From contig JAIUPK010000001.1 of NCBI GenBank assembly GCA_020160915.1, positions 465,645-529,644 of the forward strand: DNA of 64,000 nucleotides, written 5' to 3'. Both the position numbers and the translations under genes were made by a program. The DNA comes from Actinomycetota bacterium. Lineage in GTDB: Bacteria; Actinomycetota; Actinomycetes; Actinomycetales; Microbacteriaceae. Below, in pieces: positions 1-60,597 of the stretch (position 1 is the first letter of the stretch; each line of letters starts with the position of its first letter). The notes beneath the pieces are model-generated. The model ran no database searches. It saw only the letters and a program-made list of their open reading frames with translations, and was not told where the DNA came from.

Positions 1-480
1 CGTCGTGTCCCCCGGCCCGTACACGGCGTGCGGGCGCAGGATCACGGCATCGGCGTCCGCGAGCTCGGCCTCGGCGGCGGTCTTGGACTCGGAGTAGGTG
101 CTCAGGAAGTGGTCCACCGGCGCGGCCGACTCGCTCACGCGCACGCTGGGCGTGAACGCGTCGTAGACGCTCGACGTGGACAGGTGCACGATCCGCGCCC
201 CGGGGAAACTCGCCACGACGTTCCTCGTGCCGATCTCGTTGGTGCGCATGGCATCCCCGCGCGGTGCCCAGTCGTCGGCAAGCGCGGCCGAGTGCACGAC
301 GGCATCGAAGCTGTCGACGCGCGGCCCGGCGGCGATGTCCCACTGCTCGTAGCTGGCCAGCGGATGCCCCCACCCGCCCGGCCGTCGACCGAACCCGGTC
401 ACCTCGTGCCCCCGCTCGGCCAGTGCCGTGGCCACCGCTCCCCCGACGAACCCGCTCGCGCCGGTCACCCCCACCCTCAC
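1..480 (-). CDS. NAD-dependent epimerase/dehydratase, OleD-like (partial, 3' end outside window)
   Basis: The visible 160 residues form the N-terminal Rossmann half of an extended short-chain dehydrogenase: VTGASGFVGG dinucleotide loop at residues 5-14, a STSSVYD segment and the catalytic YSESK (YxxxK). The GTG start at 480 overlaps the stop of the upstream AMP ligase as GTGA, so translation is probably coupled. As the last visible member of an operon with an OleA-like condensing enzyme and an OleC-like ligase it is best read as OleD, which reduces 2-alkyl-3-ketoalkanoic acids to the 3-hydroxy acids. A generic sugar-nucleotide epimerase is the alternative, because motifs alone do not fix the substrate. 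The gene runs off the left edge. Confidence 0.8.
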   Translation of the reverse strand, partial: MRVGVTGASGFVGGAVATALAERGHEVTGFGRRPGGWGHPLASYEQWDIAAGPRVDSFDAVVHSAALADDWAPRGDAMRTNEIGTRNVVASFPGARIVHLSTSSVYDAFTPSVRVSESAAPVDHFLSTYSESKTAAEAELADADAVILRPHAVYGPGDTT

Positions 481-2051
481 GCGAAAGCCTCGGACACGAG
501 TCGACCGAGCGCCGCGCGATCGAGTTTGCGACTGCGCCCCGACCGCGGCAGATCTGACATGGTCATGATCCTGTCAGGCAGCACCGCCGAATCGATCAGT
601 CCGGGCAGGGCGCGTCGCAGTGCCGCCTCGTCGTAGCCGTCAGCGGGCACGATCACGAGCACGAGTCGGTCGTCGCCCACATCGTCTGGAACGCCGACGA
701 TCGCCGCCTCGGCAATGCCGGGCAGTCCCGCGATGACGGGCTCGTAGAGGCCGGGGTAGACGTTGGTGCTGCCCCGGATGAACATGTCCTTGCTGCGCCC
801 GGCGAGAACCAGTCGGTGCGCCTCGACGCGCGCCAGGTCTCCCGTGCGCAGTTCGGTCAGGGGCGGCTCACCCAGGTAGCCGAGGGCGAGCCCCTCGCCG
901 GCAACCACGAGCTCCCCGTCGTCGATGCGCACCGAAACGTGGTTCATCACGCGCCCGACGTAGTCGCCGGCGCCCGTGAAGGCGAGCTTCTCGTCACCGT
1001 CGGCGATCGCCACCGGCAGGATCTCGGTCATGCCGTAGACGGCACGGATGACCGTCCCGGGCAGCTGGGCACGAGCGCGCAGAAGCAGAGGACGCAGTAC
1101 GGGAGCCCCGCCGACGATCAGGGCCCTCAGCCTCGGCGTCTTCGCGGGCGTGTGCTCGAGCATCCGCAGCAGGGCGTCGAGGGCCGCCGGCACTGCGAAG
1201 AGCACGTCCGCCCGCGGCAGCAGGTCGAGGTACTTCTCAGGACGCGCACCGGGGTCGGCACCCACCGGCGGCAGCTGCCAGTGCGCGCCCGCGATGAGCG
1301 CCGGGATGCCCACCATCAGCTGGTCGGTCAGCACGCGTTCGCCGGGCACGAACCCGACCGCGCTCGCGAAGTCGTCGAGACCGGTGCCCAGCGAGGCGCG
1401 GGAGTGCACGACCGCCTTGGGTGCGTCGGTGGTGCCGCTGGTGAAGATGATCAAGGCTTCGCGGTTGGGCTGGTCGAGTAGCGGCGCAGCCGCGTATCGA
1501 GACCCCTCCCCGGTGATCAGACGGCCGGGACGGCCGTCTGCGCTGGCGTCGCGGCGAAGGCCAGAAATGGCCTTCGCTCCTAGCTCCAGCGCGCCCGTCG
1601 GCACCCCCGGCAGCCACGGTCCGGCGTAGATGTGCCGGGCATCCGGAACCACCGTGCCGTAGTCGGGCAGCTCGAGCCCGCGGCGCCGGGCGATGCCCCG
1701 CAGCGGTCCGGATGACGCGGCATACAGCACCGACTCGGCCGCAACCCACGCGGGGGCGGCGAGCGCCGCACGCGCCCGGAACATCGCTTCGCCCGCGCCC
1801 GGATCCGCGAACACCACGGTACCGCCGGCGGCGATGATTCCCAGTGCGAGGCAGATGCCGTCGATGCCGGGCCGCACGCTGAACAGCACGCGGTCGCCGG
1901 GCTTCAGCCCCGCCGCCGTGAGGGAGCACGCCACGCCGTGGATGCGGTCGGCCAGGTCGCGGTAGGTGAGTGTCGTCCTCCGCAACGACAGGGCGGGCGC
2001 GTCGGGGGTGCGCTCGCAGGAGCCGAGGAGTGCGGCGAGGATGTCGGTCAT
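477..2051 (-). CDS. AMP-dependent ligase, OleC-like (beta-lactone synthetase type)
   Basis: 524-residue adenylate-forming enzyme. The P-loop IIFTSGTTDAPKAV lies at about 201-214, and YGMTE and GELVVAGEGLALGYLGE follow in the expected order; RTGDLARVE is the hinge-side motif. OleC enzymes use ATP to close 2-alkyl-3-hydroxy acids to beta-lactones, and the OleA/OleD-like neighbours favour that role over ordinary acyl-CoA synthesis. The ATG at 2051 overlaps the P450 stop (ATGA). Residues ~156-195, just before the P-loop, are encoded by two different palindromic repeats that stay in frame, an insertion most ANL enzymes would not have. Assignment to OleC rather than a general acyl-CoA ligase is by context. 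Confidence 0.8.
   Translation of the reverse strand: MTDILAALLGSCERTPDAPALSLRRTTLTYRDLADRIHGVACSLTAAGLKPGDRVLFSVRPGIDGICLALGIIAAGGTVVFADPGAGEAMFRARAALAAPAWVAAESVLYAASSGPLRGIARRRGLELPDYGTVVPDARHIYAGPWLPGVPTGALELGAKAISGLRRDASADGRPGRLITGEGSRYAAAPLLDQPNREALIIFTSGTTDAPKAVVHSRASLGTGLDDFASAVGFVPGERVLTDQLMVGIPALIAGAHWQLPPVGADPGARPEKYLDLLPRADVLFAVPAALDALLRMLEHTPAKTPRLRALIVGGAPVLRPLLLRARAQLPGTVIRAVYGMTEILPVAIADGDEKLAFTGAGDYVGRVMNHVSVRIDDGELVVAGEGLALGYLGEPPLTELRTGDLARVEAHRLVLAGRSKDMFIRGSTNVYPGLYEPVIAGLPGIAEAAIVGVPDDVGDDRLVLVIVPADGYDEAALRRALPGLIDSAVLPDRIMTMSDLPRSGRSRKLDRAALGRLVSEAFA
1472..1504 (+). repeat. REP-like repeat (type A) inside the AMP ligase gene
   Basis: Begins GGTCGAGTAG and ends GTATCGAGACC around a GCGGC/GCCGC hairpin. 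It is 5-6 bp from the type B repeat and in frame with the ligase (reads SRYAAAPLLDQ). Confidence 0.9.
1510..1585 (-). repeat. Double-hairpin repeat (type B) inside the AMP ligase gene
   Basis: Hairpin 1 (1554-1577): arms GCGAAGGCCA and TGGCCTTCGC on the minus strand, loop TTTC. Hairpin 2 (1518-1540): arms CAGACGGCCG and CGGCCGTCTG, loop TCC. Reads AISGLRRD-A-SADGRPG in the ligase frame, matching the hrpA copy in both DNA and reading frame. Confidence 0.9.
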
Positions 2052-14206: not shown

Positions 14207-15141
14207 AGCGCCCACGACCCGTAGACGTGCTCGGTCGTGCTGGCGACCTGCGCTGCCAGCTCGTCCACGTCCGCGTCGAGGTGCTCGGCCATCGCGCGCA
14301 GGGTGTGCGGGATGAGGTACGGCGAGTTGGGGCGACCTCTGAAGGGGCTCGGCGTGAGGTACGGCGCATCCGTCTCGACCATGATGCGGTCGCGGGGAAT
14401 CACCGATAGCGCTTCGCGAAGCCCGGCGGCGTTCTTGAAGGTGACGGTGCCGGCGAACGACAGGTACCAGCCGTGGTCGGCCGCGATGCGGGCCATCTCG
14501 GCGTCGCCCGAGAAGCAGTGGAACACCGTGTGCTCGGGGGCTCCGACGCGCAGCAGCGTCGCGATCACCTCAGCGTGGGCGTCCCGGTCGTGGATCTGCA
14601 GGGCGATGCCGTGCTTCTTGGCGATCTCGATGTGCGCCTCGAACGAACGGTACTGGGCGTCGCGGCCTTCGTCGCCGGTGCGGAAGAAGTCGAGGCCGGT
14701 CTCGCCCACCGCCCGAACCCGCGGCTGGCCGGCGAGGGCATCGATCTCGGCGAGCGCGGCATCCAGGTCTGCGAACCCCGGCGCCTCGTTGGGGTGCAGC
14801 GCCACGGCGGCAAGCATCCGCGGCTCGGTCGCAGCCACAGATGCAGACCAGCGCGACGTCTCCAGATCGCCGCCGACCTGCACGACACCCTTCACTCCCA
14901 CCCGCTCGGCGCGGTCGAGCTGCTCGAGGTAGTCGAGTTCGCCGCCGGGCTCACCGTCGGAGATCTCGAGGTGGGTGTGGTTGTCGTACACCGCGACGGC
15001 CAACGGCTCCGGAAGGGGCGGGTAGGTCAGGTCGCGCGAGCCTGACTCGCGCTGCCGGACGAACGCGGGTTGAGTAGGCGAAGCCGTATCGAAACCACCA
15101 CCACCACCGTGCGATTTCGATACACGCTCCGCGTTACTCAA
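14203..15141 (-). CDS. tatD: TatD family metal-dependent hydrolase/DNase
   Basis: 312 residues if it starts at TTG 15141. Metal-binding motifs in order: [28 protein letters not shown] and ETDAPYLTP, a full TatD TIM-barrel set. TatD enzymes are Mg-dependent 3' exonucleases/deoxyribonucleases. There is no ATG or GTG in frame between the metG stop and the PPLPEPLAV region. The only usable start is this TTG, which overlaps the metG stop (TTGA) and lies inside the arm of a REP-like repeat; the first ~25 residues are repeat-encoded. Use of CTG further in cannot be excluded. Confidence 0.88.
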
Positions 15142-27910: not shown

Positions 27911-27940
27911 GGCCCTCCCCGCGGCGCCGCGGGGAGGGCC
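27911..27940. terminator. Strong GC-rich palindromic terminator
   Basis: A perfect 30-bp palindrome with arms GGCCCTCCCCGCGGC and GCCGCGGGGAGGGCC, followed by TCTTCCTT. It isolates metY from the surface-protein gene. Confidence 0.7.
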
Positions 27941-37428: not shown

Positions 37429-40400
37429 ATGCCCGAGGACCTCCCCCCGATCACCTATCCCCCCGAGCTGCCGGTCAGCCAGCGGCGGGATGACATTGCC
37501 GACGCCCTGCGCGCGAACCAGGTGATCATCGTCGCCGGCGCCACGGGCTCGGGCAAGACGACCCAGCTGCCCAAGATCCTTCTCGAGCTCGGCAAGCGCA
37601 GCATCGGGCACACCCAGCCGCGGCGGATCGCGGCCCGCACGATCGCCGAGCGCGTCGCGCAGGAACTCGGCCAGGAGGTCGGTGGCCTGGTCGGATACCA
37701 GGTGCGTTTCACCGATCGGGTGGGGCCGCAGACCCGCATCAAGCTCATGACTGACGGAATCCTGCTCAACGAGATCCACCGCGACCGCGACCTGAAGAAG
37801 TACGACGCGATCATCATCGACGAGGCCCACGAGCGCAGTCTCACCGTCGACTTCCTGCTCGGCTACCTCAAGCAACTGCTCCCCCGCCGACCCGATCTCA
37901 CTGTCGTGATCACGAGTGCGACCATCGACCCCGAGAGCTTCGCCCGGCACTTCGCGGATGCCGCCGGCACACCCGCCCCGATCATCGAGGTATCGGGGCG
38001 CACCTACCCTGTCGAGATCCGCTACCGGCCGCTGGTCGCCGAGGCCCTCGAGGCCGAGGACGCGGAGGAGGCTGCCGCCAACGCCGCCGATCGGGACTAC
38101 CTCCAGGGCATCAATGACGCCCTCGACGAGCTTGCCCGCGAGGGCGACGGCGACGTGCTCGTGTTCCTGTCCGGCGAGAACGAGATCCGGGATGCCGAGG
38201 ACGCCATCCGCGGCCGCATCTCGGCGGGCTCGATGACCGGCGGCACCGAGGTGCTGCCGCTCTACGGTCGACTCAGCGCAGCCGACCAGCACCGGGTGTT
38301 CGAGACGTCGCGCACGCCGGGCGTGCGCCGCAGGGTGGTGCTGGCGACGAACGTCGCAGAGACGTCGTTGACCGTGCCGGGCATCCGGTATGTCATCGAC
38401 GCCGGAACTGCTCGCATCAGCCGGTACAGCGTGCGCTCGAAGATTCAGCGGCTGCCGATCGAGGCGATCAGTCAAGCCAGCGCGAACCAGCGCTCGGGGC
38501 GCTCCGGGCGCACGAGCGATGGCATCGCGATCCGGCTGTACAGCGAGGAGGACTTCGCCCGGCGGCCCGAGTTCACCGAGCCCGAGATCCTGCGTACGAA
38601 CCTCGCTGCCGTCATCCTGCAGATGATCTCGCTGGGCCTCGGCGACATCGCCAGTTTTCCCTTCCTGCAGCCGCCGGACTCCCGGGGCATCAAGGATGGC
38701 CTCGACCTGCTGAAGGAACTGGGCGCGGTGGAGCTGAAAGCGGAGGCCATTTCTGGCCTCCGCCGCGACCCCAGCGCCGATCGCCGTCCCGGCGATCGGG
38801 TTGCCGGGCCCCGCATAACCCGCATCGGCAAGCAGCTCACCCAGTTGCCTCTCGACCCGCGGCTTGCCCGCATGGTCATCGAGTCGAAGCAGCACGGCAC
38901 CACCCGCGAGGTGATCGCGATCGTCGCGGGTCTCAGCATCCAGGATCCCCGGGAGCGTCCGCTCGAGCGGCGAGCCCAGGCCGACCAGCAGCACGCGCGC
39001 TTCGTCGATCCGACGAGCGACTTCCTCACGCTGCTGAACCTGTGGAACTACCTCGAGGGCAAGCAGAAGGAGCTGTCGGGCAACGCATTCCGCCGACTCG
39101 TGAAGTCGGAGTACCTCAACTACCTGCGAGTGCGGGAGTGGCAGGACGTGTTCCGCCAGTTGAGTCGCGCTGCCACACCCCTCGGGCTGCACGTGGGCGA
39201 AGCGCACGTCAACCCTGACGGCATCCATCGGTCGATCCTCGCCGGGCTGCTCAGCCAGATCGGCCTGCGCGATCTCGCGAAGAAGGACTACGTGGGGGCA
39301 CGCCAGAGCCGCTTCGTGATCTTCCCGGGATCGGCCCTCGCGAAGAAGCAGCCCGCCGCGATCATGAGCGCCGAGCTCGTGGAGACCAGCCGGCTGTTCG
39401 CGCGCACCAACGGGGCCATCGATCCCGCGTGGGCGGAGAAGATCGCGGGCGACCTCGCCAAGCGCAGCTACTCCGAGCCGCACTGGGAGAAGAAGCAGGG
39501 GGCGGTCGTCGCCTACGAGCGGGTGACGCTGTACGGCGTGCCGATCATCGCGAAGCGCCGGGTGCAGTTCTCCCGCATCGACCCGGCCTACGCGCGCGAG
39601 CTCTTCATTCGGCACGCGCTCGTCGACGGCGAGTGGGATCTCGACCGGGTGGATCAGAGACTTGCCGCGTTCGATCGGGCCAACCGCGCCCTGCGTGCGC
39701 AGCTCGCCGAGCTCGAGGAGCGCACCCGCCGCCGCGACATCCTGTACGACGACGAGGCGATCTTCGAGTTCTACCTGCGTCGCATCCCCGCGGATGTCGC
39801 GTCGACCCGCGACTTCGAGGGCTGGTGGAAGAAGGCGCGCCTCGAGACCCCCGACCTGCTCACCATGACGCCCGAGAACCTGATGCCCGACGACGCTCCG
39901 GTCGTCGACGAGGAGGCGTTCCCGAGCACCTGGACGCACGGCGACCAGACCCTCGCTCTGACCTACCGGTTCGAACCCGGCGCCGAAGACGATGGCGTCA
40001 CCGTCGCGGTGCCGCTGCCACTGCTCGCCGGCCTGCGGTCTGACGGTTTCGACTGGCAGGTGCCCGGCCTGCGCGAGGAGCTCGTGACCGCGCTCATCAA
40101 GAGCCTGCCCAAACACATCCGCAAGAACGTCGTACCCGCCGCGGACTGGGCGCGCAAGCTGCTCGTGCCGGTGGTCGAGCGCAGTCGCGACCTGCCGCAC
40201 GGATCTCGACTCCGTTCGATCACCGAGGAGCTGGCAGCCGAGATCACCGCCCAGACCTATACCCCCGTGGCCGCCGCCGACTTTGATCTCGACCGCGTGC
40301 CGGAGCACCTGAAGGTCACCTTCGCGGTCTTCGACGAGAAGGGCAAGCGCGTCGCCGCGGGCAAGACACTCAGCGCCCTCCAGGCCAGCCTCAAGCCCGC

Positions 40401-41304
40401 TGCCCGCGAATCGGTCGCGCGAGTGGTCGAGACCCCTCGCGACAGCCTCGAGCGCGCCGGCCTGACCACGTGGGACTTCGACGCGCTCGATCGGGTGCGG
40501 GATACCCGGCACGGCGGCAACACGATCCGCGCCTACCCAGCCCTCGTCGACGAGGGGTCGAGCGTGTCGATCCGGCTGTTCGGCACCCCGCACGACCAGG
40601 CCGTCGCCCATCGCGCCGGGGTGCGTCGGTTGCTACAGAAGGCCATCCCCTCCCCGACCGGGTACGTGCAGGAGCACCTGACCACCCAGGAGAAACTGGT
40701 GCTCGCCCAGAGCCCGTACCGCACGACGGCCGAACTCTTCGATGACTGCATGATCGCCTGCATCGATGCCGTCGTCGGCGACGCCGAGCCGTGGACGCGG
40801 GCCGAATTCGAGACGCTGCGGGATGCCGTCTCGGCAACGATCGTCGACTCCCTGTTCGAGACCGTCGCCCTTGTATCCCGCATCATCGGCAAGGGCCGGG
40901 ACGCCGACCGCGCCATCCGCGGCGCGACCAGCATGGCGCTCATCTCCCCGCTCGCCGACGCCCGCAGCCAACTGGAGGCGCTGCTCTACCCCGGCTTCGT
41001 GGCCATCACCGGCGCGCGCCAGTTGCGCCGGCTGCTCGTCTACCTCGACGGGCTCATCCACCGCGTCGACAAGCTGGCGGAGAACCCGTCCCGCGACCGC
41101 GTGTGGATGGCCGAGGTGCAGGCGGCGAGTGACCGGTACACGGCGGCGGGAGGGGCGCTGCCGCTGCAGGCGGGGGCTGAGGCCCGCGTCATCCATGCCC
41201 GCTGGATGCTGGAGGAATTCAGGCTCAGCCTGTTCGCGCAGCATCTGGGAACCGCCGAACCCGTCAGTCTCAAGCGCATCACAGCCGTCCTGTCCGGGCC
41301 CTGA
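37429..41304 (+). CDS. hrpA: ATP-dependent RNA helicase HrpA
   Basis: 1291 residues. DEAH-box motifs: GATGSGKTTQLPK (I), QPRRIAARTIAERVA (Ia), IIDEAHERS (II), VITSATID (III), ATNVAETSLTVPGIRYVIDAG (V-like region) and QRSGRSGRTSDG (VI). The long C-terminal part is the DUF3418 region of HrpA. It remodels mRNP or ribosome complexes. Residues ~435-462 (EAISGLRRDPSADRRPG) are encoded by a double-hairpin repeat also found inside the AMP ligase at 1510-1580; it stays in frame and follows the helicase core region SLGLGDIASFPFLQPP. Confidence 0.95.
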   Translation: MPEDLPPITYPPELPVSQRRDDIADALRANQVIIVAGATGSGKTTQLPKILLELGKRSIGHTQPRRIAARTIAERVAQELGQEVGGLVGYQVRFTDRVGPQTRIKLMTDGILLNEIHRDRDLKKYDAIIIDEAHERSLTVDFLLGYLKQLLPRRPDLTVVITSATIDPESFARHFADAAGTPAPIIEVSGRTYPVEIRYRPLVAEALEAEDAEEAAANAADRDYLQGINDALDELAREGDGDVLVFLSGENEIRDAEDAIRGRISAGSMTGGTEVLPLYGRLSAADQHRVFETSRTPGVRRRVVLATNVAETSLTVPGIRYVIDAGTARISRYSVRSKIQRLPIEAISQASANQRSGRSGRTSDGIAIRLYSEEDFARRPEFTEPEILRTNLAAVILQMISLGLGDIASFPFLQPPDSRGIKDGLDLLKELGAVELKAEAISGLRRDPSADRRPGDRVAGPRITRIGKQLTQLPLDPRLARMVIESKQHGTTREVIAIVAGLSIQDPRERPLERRAQADQQHARFVDPTSDFLTLLNLWNYLEGKQKELSGNAFRRLVKSEYLNYLRVREWQDVFRQLSRAATPLGLHVGEAHVNPDGIHRSILAGLLSQIGLRDLAKKDYVGARQSRFVIFPGSALAKKQPAAIMSAELVETSRLFARTNGAIDPAWAEKIAGDLAKRSYSEPHWEKKQGAVVAYERVTLYGVPIIAKRRVQFSRIDPAYARELFIRHALVDGEWDLDRVDQRLAAFDRANRALRAQLAELEERTRRRDILYDDEAIFEFYLRRIPADVASTRDFEGWWKKARLETPDLLTMTPENLMPDDAPVVDEEAFPSTWTHGDQTLALTYRFEPGAEDDGVTVAVPLPLLAGLRSDGFDWQVPGLREELVTALIKSLPKHIRKNVVPAADWARKLLVPVVERSRDLPHGSRLRSITEELAAEITAQTYTPVAAADFDLDRVPEHLKVTFAVFDEKGKRVAAGKTLSALQASLKPAARESVARVVETPRDSLERAGLTTWDFDALDRVRDTRHGGNTIRAYPALVDEGSSVSIRLFGTPHDQAVAHRAGVRRLLQKAIPSPTGYVQEHLTTQEKLVLAQSPYRTTAELFDDCMIACIDAVVGDAEPWTRAEFETLRDAVSATIVDSLFETVALVSRIIGKGRDADRAIRGATSMALISPLADARSQLEALLYPGFVAITGARQLRRLLVYLDGLIHRVDKLAENPSRDRVWMAEVQAASDRYTAAGGALPLQAGAEARVIHARWMLEEFRLSLFAQHLGTAEPVSLKRITAVLSGP
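38733..38806 (+). repeat. Double-hairpin repeat (type B) inside hrpA
   Basis: Hairpin 1 (38740-38763): arms GCGGAGGCCA and TGGCCTCCGC, loop TTTC. Hairpin 2 (38777-38799): arms CCGATCGCCG and CGGCGATCGG, loop TCC. Between them lies CGCGACCCCAGCG. It aligns over most of its length with the reverse complement of 1510-1585, and the stem differences are compensated on both arms. Confidence 0.9.
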
Positions 41305-45734: not shown

Positions 45735-45767
45735 GGTTGAGTAGCGGCAGCGCCGCGTATCGAAACC
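45735..45767 (+). repeat. REP-like repeat (type A) before the broken acetyltransferase
   Basis: GGTTGAGTAG...GTATCGAAACC around GCGGCAGCGCCGC, starting 4 bp after the stop of the SDR gene and ending next to the acetyltransferase stop. Confidence 0.9.
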
Positions 45768-45768
45768 C

Positions 45769-46275
45769 CTACAGCACCTTCTCGAAGCACAGCGCCCCGG
45801 GAATCGCGTCGTACTTGCCGTAGGGCGGGATCGCCACGTAGCCGAGGTCTTCGTACAGCGTGATCGCCGGCACCTGCAGGGGGCCGGTCTGCAGCACGAG
45901 GGATGCCGCGCCACGCACGCGCGCGATGGTCTCGAGTTCGCCCATCAGCAGCCGTGCCACCCCCCGACCACGCACGCTCTCGGCGACGAACACCTTCTTC
46001 ACCTCGAGCGACGTGCCTTAAGGCCGCAGCGCGGAGTGCCCGACCGCTTCCTCACCGTCGAGCGCGATGATCGTGGTGACGATCTCTGCCGGATCCACGG
46101 TGAGCGCGTCGGCGATGGCTGCCGTCACTTCCGCACTCTGGCCAGACGCGAACGCCGCGTACATGGCGCTCGTCTCGGCATCCATCGCCTCGCGCAGGGC
46201 GACCGCGCGCGGATCGAGCCAGTCGACGTACTCGATGCGGATCGGGTTTCGATACGCCGCATCGCGGCTACTCAA
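45769..46275 (-). pseudogene. GNAT acetyltransferase broken by an in-frame TAA
   Basis: One frame encodes a complete small GNAT protein (~168 residues) except for a TAA at 46020-46018 in the middle: ...AVGHSALRP, stop, GTSLEVKKVFVAESVRGRGVARLLM. The acetyl-CoA site RGRGVARL lies in the second half. There is no frameshift. The first half starts at TTG 46275 inside a REP-like repeat; the second half could restart at GTG 46002 but would lack half the fold. A sequencing error or readthrough are alternatives to a true pseudogene. Confidence 0.8.
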
Positions 46276-46277
46276 CC
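46245..46277 (-). repeat. REP-like repeat (type A) at the acetyltransferase start
   Basis: On the minus strand GGTTGAGTAG...GTATCGAAACC; the TTG of its first arm (46275) is the likely start codon of the broken acetyltransferase. With the copy at 45735 it flanks that gene in inverted orientation. Confidence 0.9.
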
Positions 46278-59245: not shown

Positions 59246-59290
59246 ACGACGGAACGGGAGCACCGGTGAAGGATGCTCCCGTTCCGTCGT
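59246..59290 (-). terminator. Long perfect hairpin terminator
   Basis: 17-bp perfect arms ACGACGGAACGGGAGCA (59246-59262) and its complement (59274-59290) around an 11-nt loop, 7 bp past the stop of the CsbD-like gene. Confidence 0.75.
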
Positions 59291-60531: not shown

Positions 60532-60597
60532 GGTCGAGTAGCCCGGAGGGCGTATCGAGACCTGCACCGGTTTCGATACGCCTTCGGCTACTCAACC
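60532..60597. repeat. Inverted pair of REP-like repeats at a convergent junction
   Basis: Copy A 60532-60562 (GGTCGAGTAG...GTATCGAGACC) and reverse copy B 60569-60597 (GGTTTCGATAC...CTACTCAACC), 6 bp apart, between DUF4349 (+) and LLM (-) genes. Copy B supplies the LLM stop codon. Confidence 0.9.

Follow-up and report, generated by a model that had tools for sequence, protein, structure and literature searches.

How does a short folded sequence come to lie in frame within two unrelated genes of one genome? This question is raised by a 64,000-nt stretch of the assembly GCA_020160915.1 of a Microbacteriaceae bacterium (contig JAIUPK010000001.1, positions 465,645-529,644; hereafter the window, in whose coordinates features are given). 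A preliminary description of this DNA, made from the sequence, had pointed to a shared element of ~75 bp with two hairpins in a gene for an AMP-dependent ligase and in the RNA helicase gene hrpA. We found both copies and assign them to a family of 74-77 nt units. In our view this family is probably a non-autonomous mobile element of the Microbacteriaceae, a folded strand of which would be copied in trans into a staggered cut, with duplication of the target.

Structure and distribution of the element

Each unit is laid out as GCGCGCTGGAGCT-NNRR-hairpin 1-YGCGACGCCAGCGC-hairpin 2. The element has three stems: an outer stem, P1 (GCGCTGG/CCAGCGC), surrounds hairpin 1, and hairpin 2 adjoins P1. The ligase copy occupies 1518-1594 on the minus strand, with its 5' end at 1594. 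It corresponds to the covariance-model match C1:467162-467236 extended by a 5' GC, whose bases are each conserved in 90% of 106 copies. Its fold places the 5' arm of P1 (GCGCTGG) at 1586-1592 and the 3' arm (CCAGCGC) at 1540-1546, while folding as RNA and as DNA yields hairpin 1 (GCGAAGGCCA-TTTC-TGGCCTTCGC) at 1554-1577 and hairpin 2 (CAGACGGCCG-TCC-CGGCCGTCTG) at 1518-1540, all on the minus strand. The hrpA copy, a covariance-model match on the plus strand at 38723-38799, folds likewise into hairpin 1 (GCGGAGGCCA-TTTC-TGGCCTCCGC) at 38740-38763 and hairpin 2 (CCGATCGCCG-TCC-CGGCGATCGG) at 38777-38799. This copy represents a subfamily marked by two linked outer-stem changes (GCGCGGTGG / ACCCCAGCGC), also present in Pseudolysinimonas kribbensis (G035), and its predicted minimum-energy fold has an alternative outer stem that incorporates the 5' GC. 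Relative to dinucleotide shuffles, the z-scores of folding were -5.74 (ligase copy) and -5.04 (hrpA copy) as RNA, and -6.02 and -5.32 as DNA.

The copies reported in the preliminary description are therefore real, but the ends of its limits (1510-1585 and 38733-38806) were wrong; its two hairpins stand, and the outer stem had been overlooked. Its further remarks, that both arms have changed where the stems of the two copies differ and that both copies are translated in the common frame AISGLRRDxSADxRPG, agree with our results.

The 14-nt core occurs five times in the window's genome and its reversed control not at all. The whole-genome search with a covariance model that had been proposed earlier gave 8 copies with E < 1e-4. 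When E values up to 10 were admitted, there were 12 matches: these 8 copies, 3 weak matches on the other strand of three copies, and 1 that is probably a chance hit. Five of the 8 copies have the common ATTTCT loop, and three have the scaffold with other hairpins. A chance repeat is ruled out by the copy number and the control comparisons.

Within the family Microbacteriaceae, the scaffold pattern was found in 57 of 299 genomes and 30 of 85 genera, with at least two copies in 36 genomes and a single match in 21, although such exact patterns overlook diverged copies. Some of the 21 single matches could be due to chance, because the reversed control pattern matched once apiece in 23 of the 299 genomes. 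Among the named matches listed are Agrococcus, Leifsonia, Diaminobutyricibacter, Frigoribacterium, Subtercola, Rhodoglobus, Homoserinimonas, Herbiconiux, Leucobacter and Pseudolysinimonas. A longer scaffold pattern was applied to a set of 297 genomes of the order, 23 of them Microbacteriaceae. It was absent from all 274 genomes of other families and matched just two Microbacteriaceae, one of them the window's genome; the control pattern had no match. Several matches outside the phylum were dismissed as due to chance, as was a coding site that recurs in Streptomyces. Carriage by phages was rejected, since the exact scaffold was absent from viral contigs. Covariance models of Rfam, run on 5 loci, reached their gathering score only for two tRNAs on L004, neither overlapping the element, and no paper on the element turned up in the open-licence literature.

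Several further copies deserve mention. Intact copies (L108, L110) occur in bins labelled Acidobacteria and Parvibaculum, probably through contamination and possibly through transfer. Genome G022 contains an identical 75-mer in six copies, a sign of recent spread or homogenisation. In the same genome (G022:C1 60395-1515541), the 15 copies that have the exact core are confined to the first half of a 3.0 Mb contig, 11 of them on the minus strand, and several copies are nested at one position of a GTAG-type palindrome. On G035:C1 the copies repeat at a constant spacing of ~3.4528 Mb; therefore, the contig probably carries its first stretch again at its end, as an assembly overlap.

Target duplications and the proposed mode of insertion

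The footprint of insertion was examined in 127 copies with sufficient flanking sequence, L114 being retained in this sample with low scores. Direct repeats with a score of at least 13 flanked 19 of the 127 copies, compared to 0.5% of swapped flank pairs. Repeats were called flush when the left one ended at most 3 nt from the 5' end of the element and the right one started at most 30 nt from hairpin 2. Such flush repeats were found at 16 of the 127 copies, whereas only 3 of 3811 control positions within these loci had them. The matched length varied from 13 to 50 nt. For instance, a repeat of 50 nt in Leucobacter weissii (L113) and one of 33 nt (L064) are flush at both ends, and aligned repeats of 43 nt (L151) and 40 nt (L090) begin 2 and 6 nt after hairpin 2, respectively. 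Strict flushness at both ends (0-1 nt) was seen at L064, L113 and L145, the last of which is possibly a tandem; the other repeats start 2-29 nt beyond hairpin 2. The 130 nt upstream of the left repeat contained no recognisable element at 12 loci; at one of these, L238, a second copy lies 490 bp upstream, and its adjacent flanks are different. The long repeats emerged only after the flanks had been widened, and short adjacent target duplications gave no signal in 100 copies at offsets of 0-2 and lengths of 3-8.

Empty sites point in the same direction. The sites of L064 and L304 are each unfilled in 8 relatives of the same genus, with the caveat that the upstream side of L064 has diverged in these relatives and that the right copy at L304 has drifted upstream of the start codon. 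The stretch duplicated at L304 spans the start codon of a fur-like gene, so that the start is restored, and the stretch duplicated at L064 is the end of a gene. Hence, the earlier proposal that the element is mobile gains support from its many loci, the flush duplications and the relatives with empty sites.

Site preference was uneven between the two junctions. At the 3' junction of 123 copies, the first base is T or A in 71% (χ2 112) and the second is G in 7% (χ2 52). At the 5' junction, the base directly before the element is close to background (χ2 4.9).

The likeliest course of insertion is as follows. One strand would fold, with the outer stem around hairpin 1 and hairpin 2 adjoining. A trans-acting factor would recognise this folded strand and copy the element into a staggered cut. 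The 3' end of the element would be joined at a weakly preferred site. Its 5' end would be joined at a distance of ~20-50 nt with almost no site specificity, after which fill-in synthesis would duplicate the target. Copies would survive where they do no harm: in variable protein linkers if the frame remains open, and at the ends of genes, whose start or stop can be made complete again by the duplication.

Several observations weigh against this interpretation. No flanking repeat with a score of at least 13 was found at 108 of the 127 copies, and neither window copy has a target duplication; the copies without repeats may be old, or may have been inserted without duplication. At several duplicated sites, the first bases that follow hairpin 2 are unmatched in the left copy of the repeat, over 2-10 nt in seven cases and 17-29 nt in three. 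A larger unit may instead have been duplicated at three loci, since L069 and L078 form tandem arrays and a remnant resembling the element lies upstream of L145. Among the 12 loci mentioned above, L068 is weak (13 nt) and L276 lies in a repeat-rich stretch. Four positions of the 5' flank deviate mildly from background (χ2 12-29). The counts of covariation and mismatches presented below are not independent, through shared descent and because most G.A cases fall in one class. Finally, no mobilising gene was found among the gene families tested for association with the element (Y1_Tnp, RVT_1 and Ku).

To our knowledge, the spread of short palindromic elements, those of Rickettsia included, has been an open question, for want of an insertion footprint. 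The element of the Microbacteriaceae displays a visible footprint: its ends are constant, its site preference is uneven and its duplications reach 50 nt. These features would indicate staggered cutting with copying of one strand. The duplication also suggests how an element can insert at the end of a gene and leave the gene intact.

Covariation of the stems and candidate machinery

Covariation was assessed in 73 copies of the long class, picked by their scaffold alone. In these copies, 97.6% of the stem cells pair, compared to 82.9% in shuffles and at most 52.9% in a control with slid partners; P1 is fixed by the selection, 46 stem cells are unpaired, and related sequences may beat shuffles without any structure. 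Changed cells were two-sided in 236 cases (58.8 in shuffles) and one-sided in 12, and every pair of hairpin 1 (10 pairs) and of hairpin 2 (9 pairs) showed two-sided changes. The loops of the two hairpins also go together, mostly and with single exceptions: YTTTCR in hairpin 1 occurs with GTCYC in hairpin 2, GCGCCAGC-like loops with GCYTGC, and the others mostly with GCTNYGC. Hairpin 2 of the GCYTGC class has tandem G.A mismatches where other classes have Watson-Crick pairs. The internal loop might consist of tandem G.A pairs, a reading based on the variant copies L028 and (by eye) L016, as against 75 of 77 canonical copies.

These mismatches bear on the choice of strand. Counting distinct sequences, we found 74 G.A or A.G mismatches versus 3 T.C or C.T mismatches, most of them from one class and not independent. 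The windows with low pairing (3 of 110 for hairpin 1 and 3 of 115 for hairpin 2) had been removed from this count. Because G.A and A.G so outnumber their equivalents on the complementary strand, the plus strand appears, from the sequences, to be the one that folds. The difference between G.T (15) and A.C (9) was not significant, and G-U pairs are rare, at 15 of 2104 stem pairs.

The preliminary description considered the element to be selected for its fold. The covariation over the 73 copies supports this view, but selection as the sole cause of the compensation needs qualification. Template switching may contribute, as it too would yield the excess of two-sided over one-sided changes and the scarcity of G-U intermediates. 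According to this alternative, the compensation is mutational: one arm serves as the template for the other, and the fold itself is not selected. A mechanism of this kind within palindromes is described in PMC8794818. It would explain the stems only, and is compatible with mobility. The outer stem at rpsK argues for it, as this stem uses the gene's stop codon and the 3' arm matches (TTTAG/CTAAA, TTTGA/TCAAA). Conversely, G.A is kept on one strand and T.C almost never, and the invariant scaffold and the recurring loop classes suggest that the fold is under selection too, with the reservation that copies had been chosen by this scaffold. On balance, we regard a purely mutational origin of the compensation as a serious possibility, but not the likelier one. 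The large natural set of covarying hairpins could separate selection from template switching.

Which machinery could move such an element? Repetitive extragenic palindromic (REP) elements are one candidate for comparison. A GTAG- or GGAG-type tetranucleotide 5' of a hairpin is a feature of REPs; the scaffold has GGAGCT before hairpin 1, but no enzyme gives this tetranucleotide a meaning. Like the GTAG- and CGTC-tagged REP palindromes described in PMC3733652, the element is short and lies mostly downstream of or between genes, with family-specific stems and some intragenic copies. A term search of that paper found no mention of Actinobacteria (PMC3733652). The element differs from REPs in its three stems instead of one, its long duplications and the lack of an associated REP-associated tyrosine transposase (RAYT). 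The idea that it is a REP moved by a RAYT, a Y1 transposase, would fit its short, palindromic form and its mostly intergenic position near gene ends. Yet the profile PF01797 matched only 3 of 299 genomes of the family, the window's genome not among them, and only one of the three (G060) has the scaffold, although a remote Y1 transposase could escape the profile. Moreover, long target duplications are not known from REPs. We rejected mobilisation by a RAYT on the near-absence of Y1 transposases, and give it hardly any credence.

Two versions of the preferred mechanism, copying of a folded strand into a staggered cut, differ in the nature of the intermediate, and we consider RNA and single-stranded DNA about equally open. 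In the first version, taken by itself rather unlikely, a processed transcript of the element would be reverse-transcribed at a nick, by target priming, as in a bacterial retroposon resembling the short interspersed nuclear elements (SINEs) of eukaryotes. Eukaryotic SINEs are short folded units with target duplications of variable length and a preference mainly at the 3' junction, and these long variable duplications and the 3' preference mark target-primed insertion. The present element likewise is a short folded unit with flush duplications of variable length and a preference mainly at the 3' junction, and its conserved loops and strand-specific fold would also suit an RNA. Unlike SINEs, however, it has no associated reverse transcriptase and no A tail, and its host is a bacterium. 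RVT_1 was found in only 7 of 57 element-bearing genomes (6 of the 36 with at least two copies), compared to 47 of the 242 others, and was absent from the window's genome by profile, although a remote enzyme could escape the profile and one could also have been lost. The few G-U pairs also speak against a functional RNA.

In the second version, to which we assign a similarly low probability, a hairpin of single-stranded DNA would be captured at staggered breaks by repair of the Ku/LigD type, followed by fill-in. The stability of the fold as DNA and the scarcity of G-U pairs fit this idea. Ku was enriched, at 44 of 57 element-bearing genomes versus 142 of 242 others (Fisher p 0.01) and at 28 of the 36 genomes with at least two copies (p 0.04), an association that ignores genome size and kinship. 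In contrast, no Ku was detected in 13 of the 57 element-bearing genomes, including G175, with 7 copies and the duplicated site L304, and host repair alone leaves the constant ends of the element unexplained. An autonomous carrier flanked by two copies was sought in eight stretches of G022, G310, G035, G024, G077 and G151; no transposase was noticed among the called genes, which were inspected by eye as translations of up to 200 residues, with no family search on them. Tentatively, and with more doubt than confidence, we suggest a small folded nucleic acid that is inserted as a SINE-like retroposon or by one-strand copy-in, with machinery outside the known classes of bacterial transposases. The search for the enzyme has at least become concrete, in named genomes.

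The element can be compared with two further groups. Target duplications of miniature inverted-repeat transposable elements (MITEs) are short and of fixed length. The bacterial MITEs RUP, NEMIS and ERIC resemble our element in being small, folded and non-autonomous, but short fixed duplications were not found here; its duplications are long and variable (13-50 nt), which sets it apart from REPs and ordinary MITEs. The likeness to Rickettsia palindromic elements (RPEs) drawn in the preliminary description is apt as regards the way of life, as RPEs too are short palindromic mobile elements inserted in frame within unrelated genes, according to PMC10969869. RPEs measure ~150 bp there, each with an open reading frame for a conserved peptide (PMC10969869). 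Our element differs from them in its 74-77 bp, its constant scaffold with exchangeable stems, its long target duplications, its occurrence in both orientations in one protein linker, and the phylum of its hosts. We know of no enzyme that mobilises RPEs.

Placement between and within genes

Placement was determined with a crude gene caller for 91 copies, that is, 94 minus L082, L095 and L114, which were dropped as chance matches. Intergenic copies lay between convergent (20), tandem (39) or divergent (9) genes; 17 copies were within genes and 6 were left unassigned. Orientation relative to host transcription is balanced, with 19 and 20 copies in the two orientations between tandem genes, and 10 intragenic copies on the same strand as the gene versus 7 on the opposite one.

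These data bear on whether the element is a functional RNA, such as a terminator or an mRNA-stability hairpin, that selection keeps in place while its mobility is incidental. Many copies are indeed close to gene ends. In addition, 11 species have in common an element-like copy in reverse orientation at the rpsK-rpoA junction, with the stems kept and the loops variable, as judged by eye. However, the strand of the host transcript is not preferred, because the orientations are balanced, and some copies lie within coding frames or inside a ribosomal operon. Hence, we consider this explanation improbable.

The rpsK-rpoA junction (L244-L270) was compared by eye in all 27 genomes; gene names outside the window (rpsK, rpmJ, fur, znuB, hisD, LysE) were likewise assigned by eye, from translations. 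Forward copies are present in G002, G003, G021 and G024, a reverse copy separate from that of the 11 species in G008, a remnant in G022, and other sequences in the remaining genomes. In G003, G021 and G024, the outer stem is built from the gene's own end, and its 3' arm tracks the stop codon. Many species have differing hairpin-forming sequences at this junction, the element in either orientation among them.

In the window, the inserts in hrpA and the ligase gene are in frame and lie in variable linkers. The hrpA gene (37429-41304, plus strand; DEAD, Helicase_C, HA2_C, OB_NTP_bind and DUF3418) carries its insert before HA2_C, at a position that we take to be the wing of a winged-helix domain. 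The orthologue comparison proposed earlier covered this linker in 20 of 27 genomes. The element peptide is absent from all 19 relatives compared (of 26), some of which have other inserts in the linker; the linker reads LLRELGAIQKNDTITRVGKQL in one relative, and that of the window's genome is 23 residues longer than the shortest linkers. The ligase gene (477-2051, minus strand; PF00501, PF13193) was compared in 12 genomes. The element is forward in G000 and reverse in G022 and G024, while the same linker has an unrelated palindrome in G004 and G014 and another repeat in G012. This linker (~1470-1600; L217-L231) is a putative hotspot of tolerated insertion. The lineage-specific hrpA insert and the separate insertions in the ligase linker, in both orientations, bear out the earlier view that the element is tolerated in proteins. 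An ancestral loop in both proteins is ruled out, as the inserts are lineage-specific among the relatives compared. A further copy lies inside the reading frame of a LysE-like transporter in G151.

The window also contains other repeats. Two perfect inverted repeats, of 17 bp at 59246-59290 and of 15 bp at 27911-27940, show no obvious connection with the element. A second palindromic family, GGTYGAGTAG..GTATCGARACC with GTAG before the hairpin, showed little sign of target duplication: 3 of 38 copies had a score of at least 14, all at one locus and none flush. By one pattern, this GTAG-type family has 7 copies in the window. One of them, GGTCGAGTAGC..GCGTATCGAGACC at 1472-1504, shares the ligase linker with the element, and the others are at 2061-2091, 15068-15096, 45735-45767, 46245-46277, 60532-60562 and 60569-60597.
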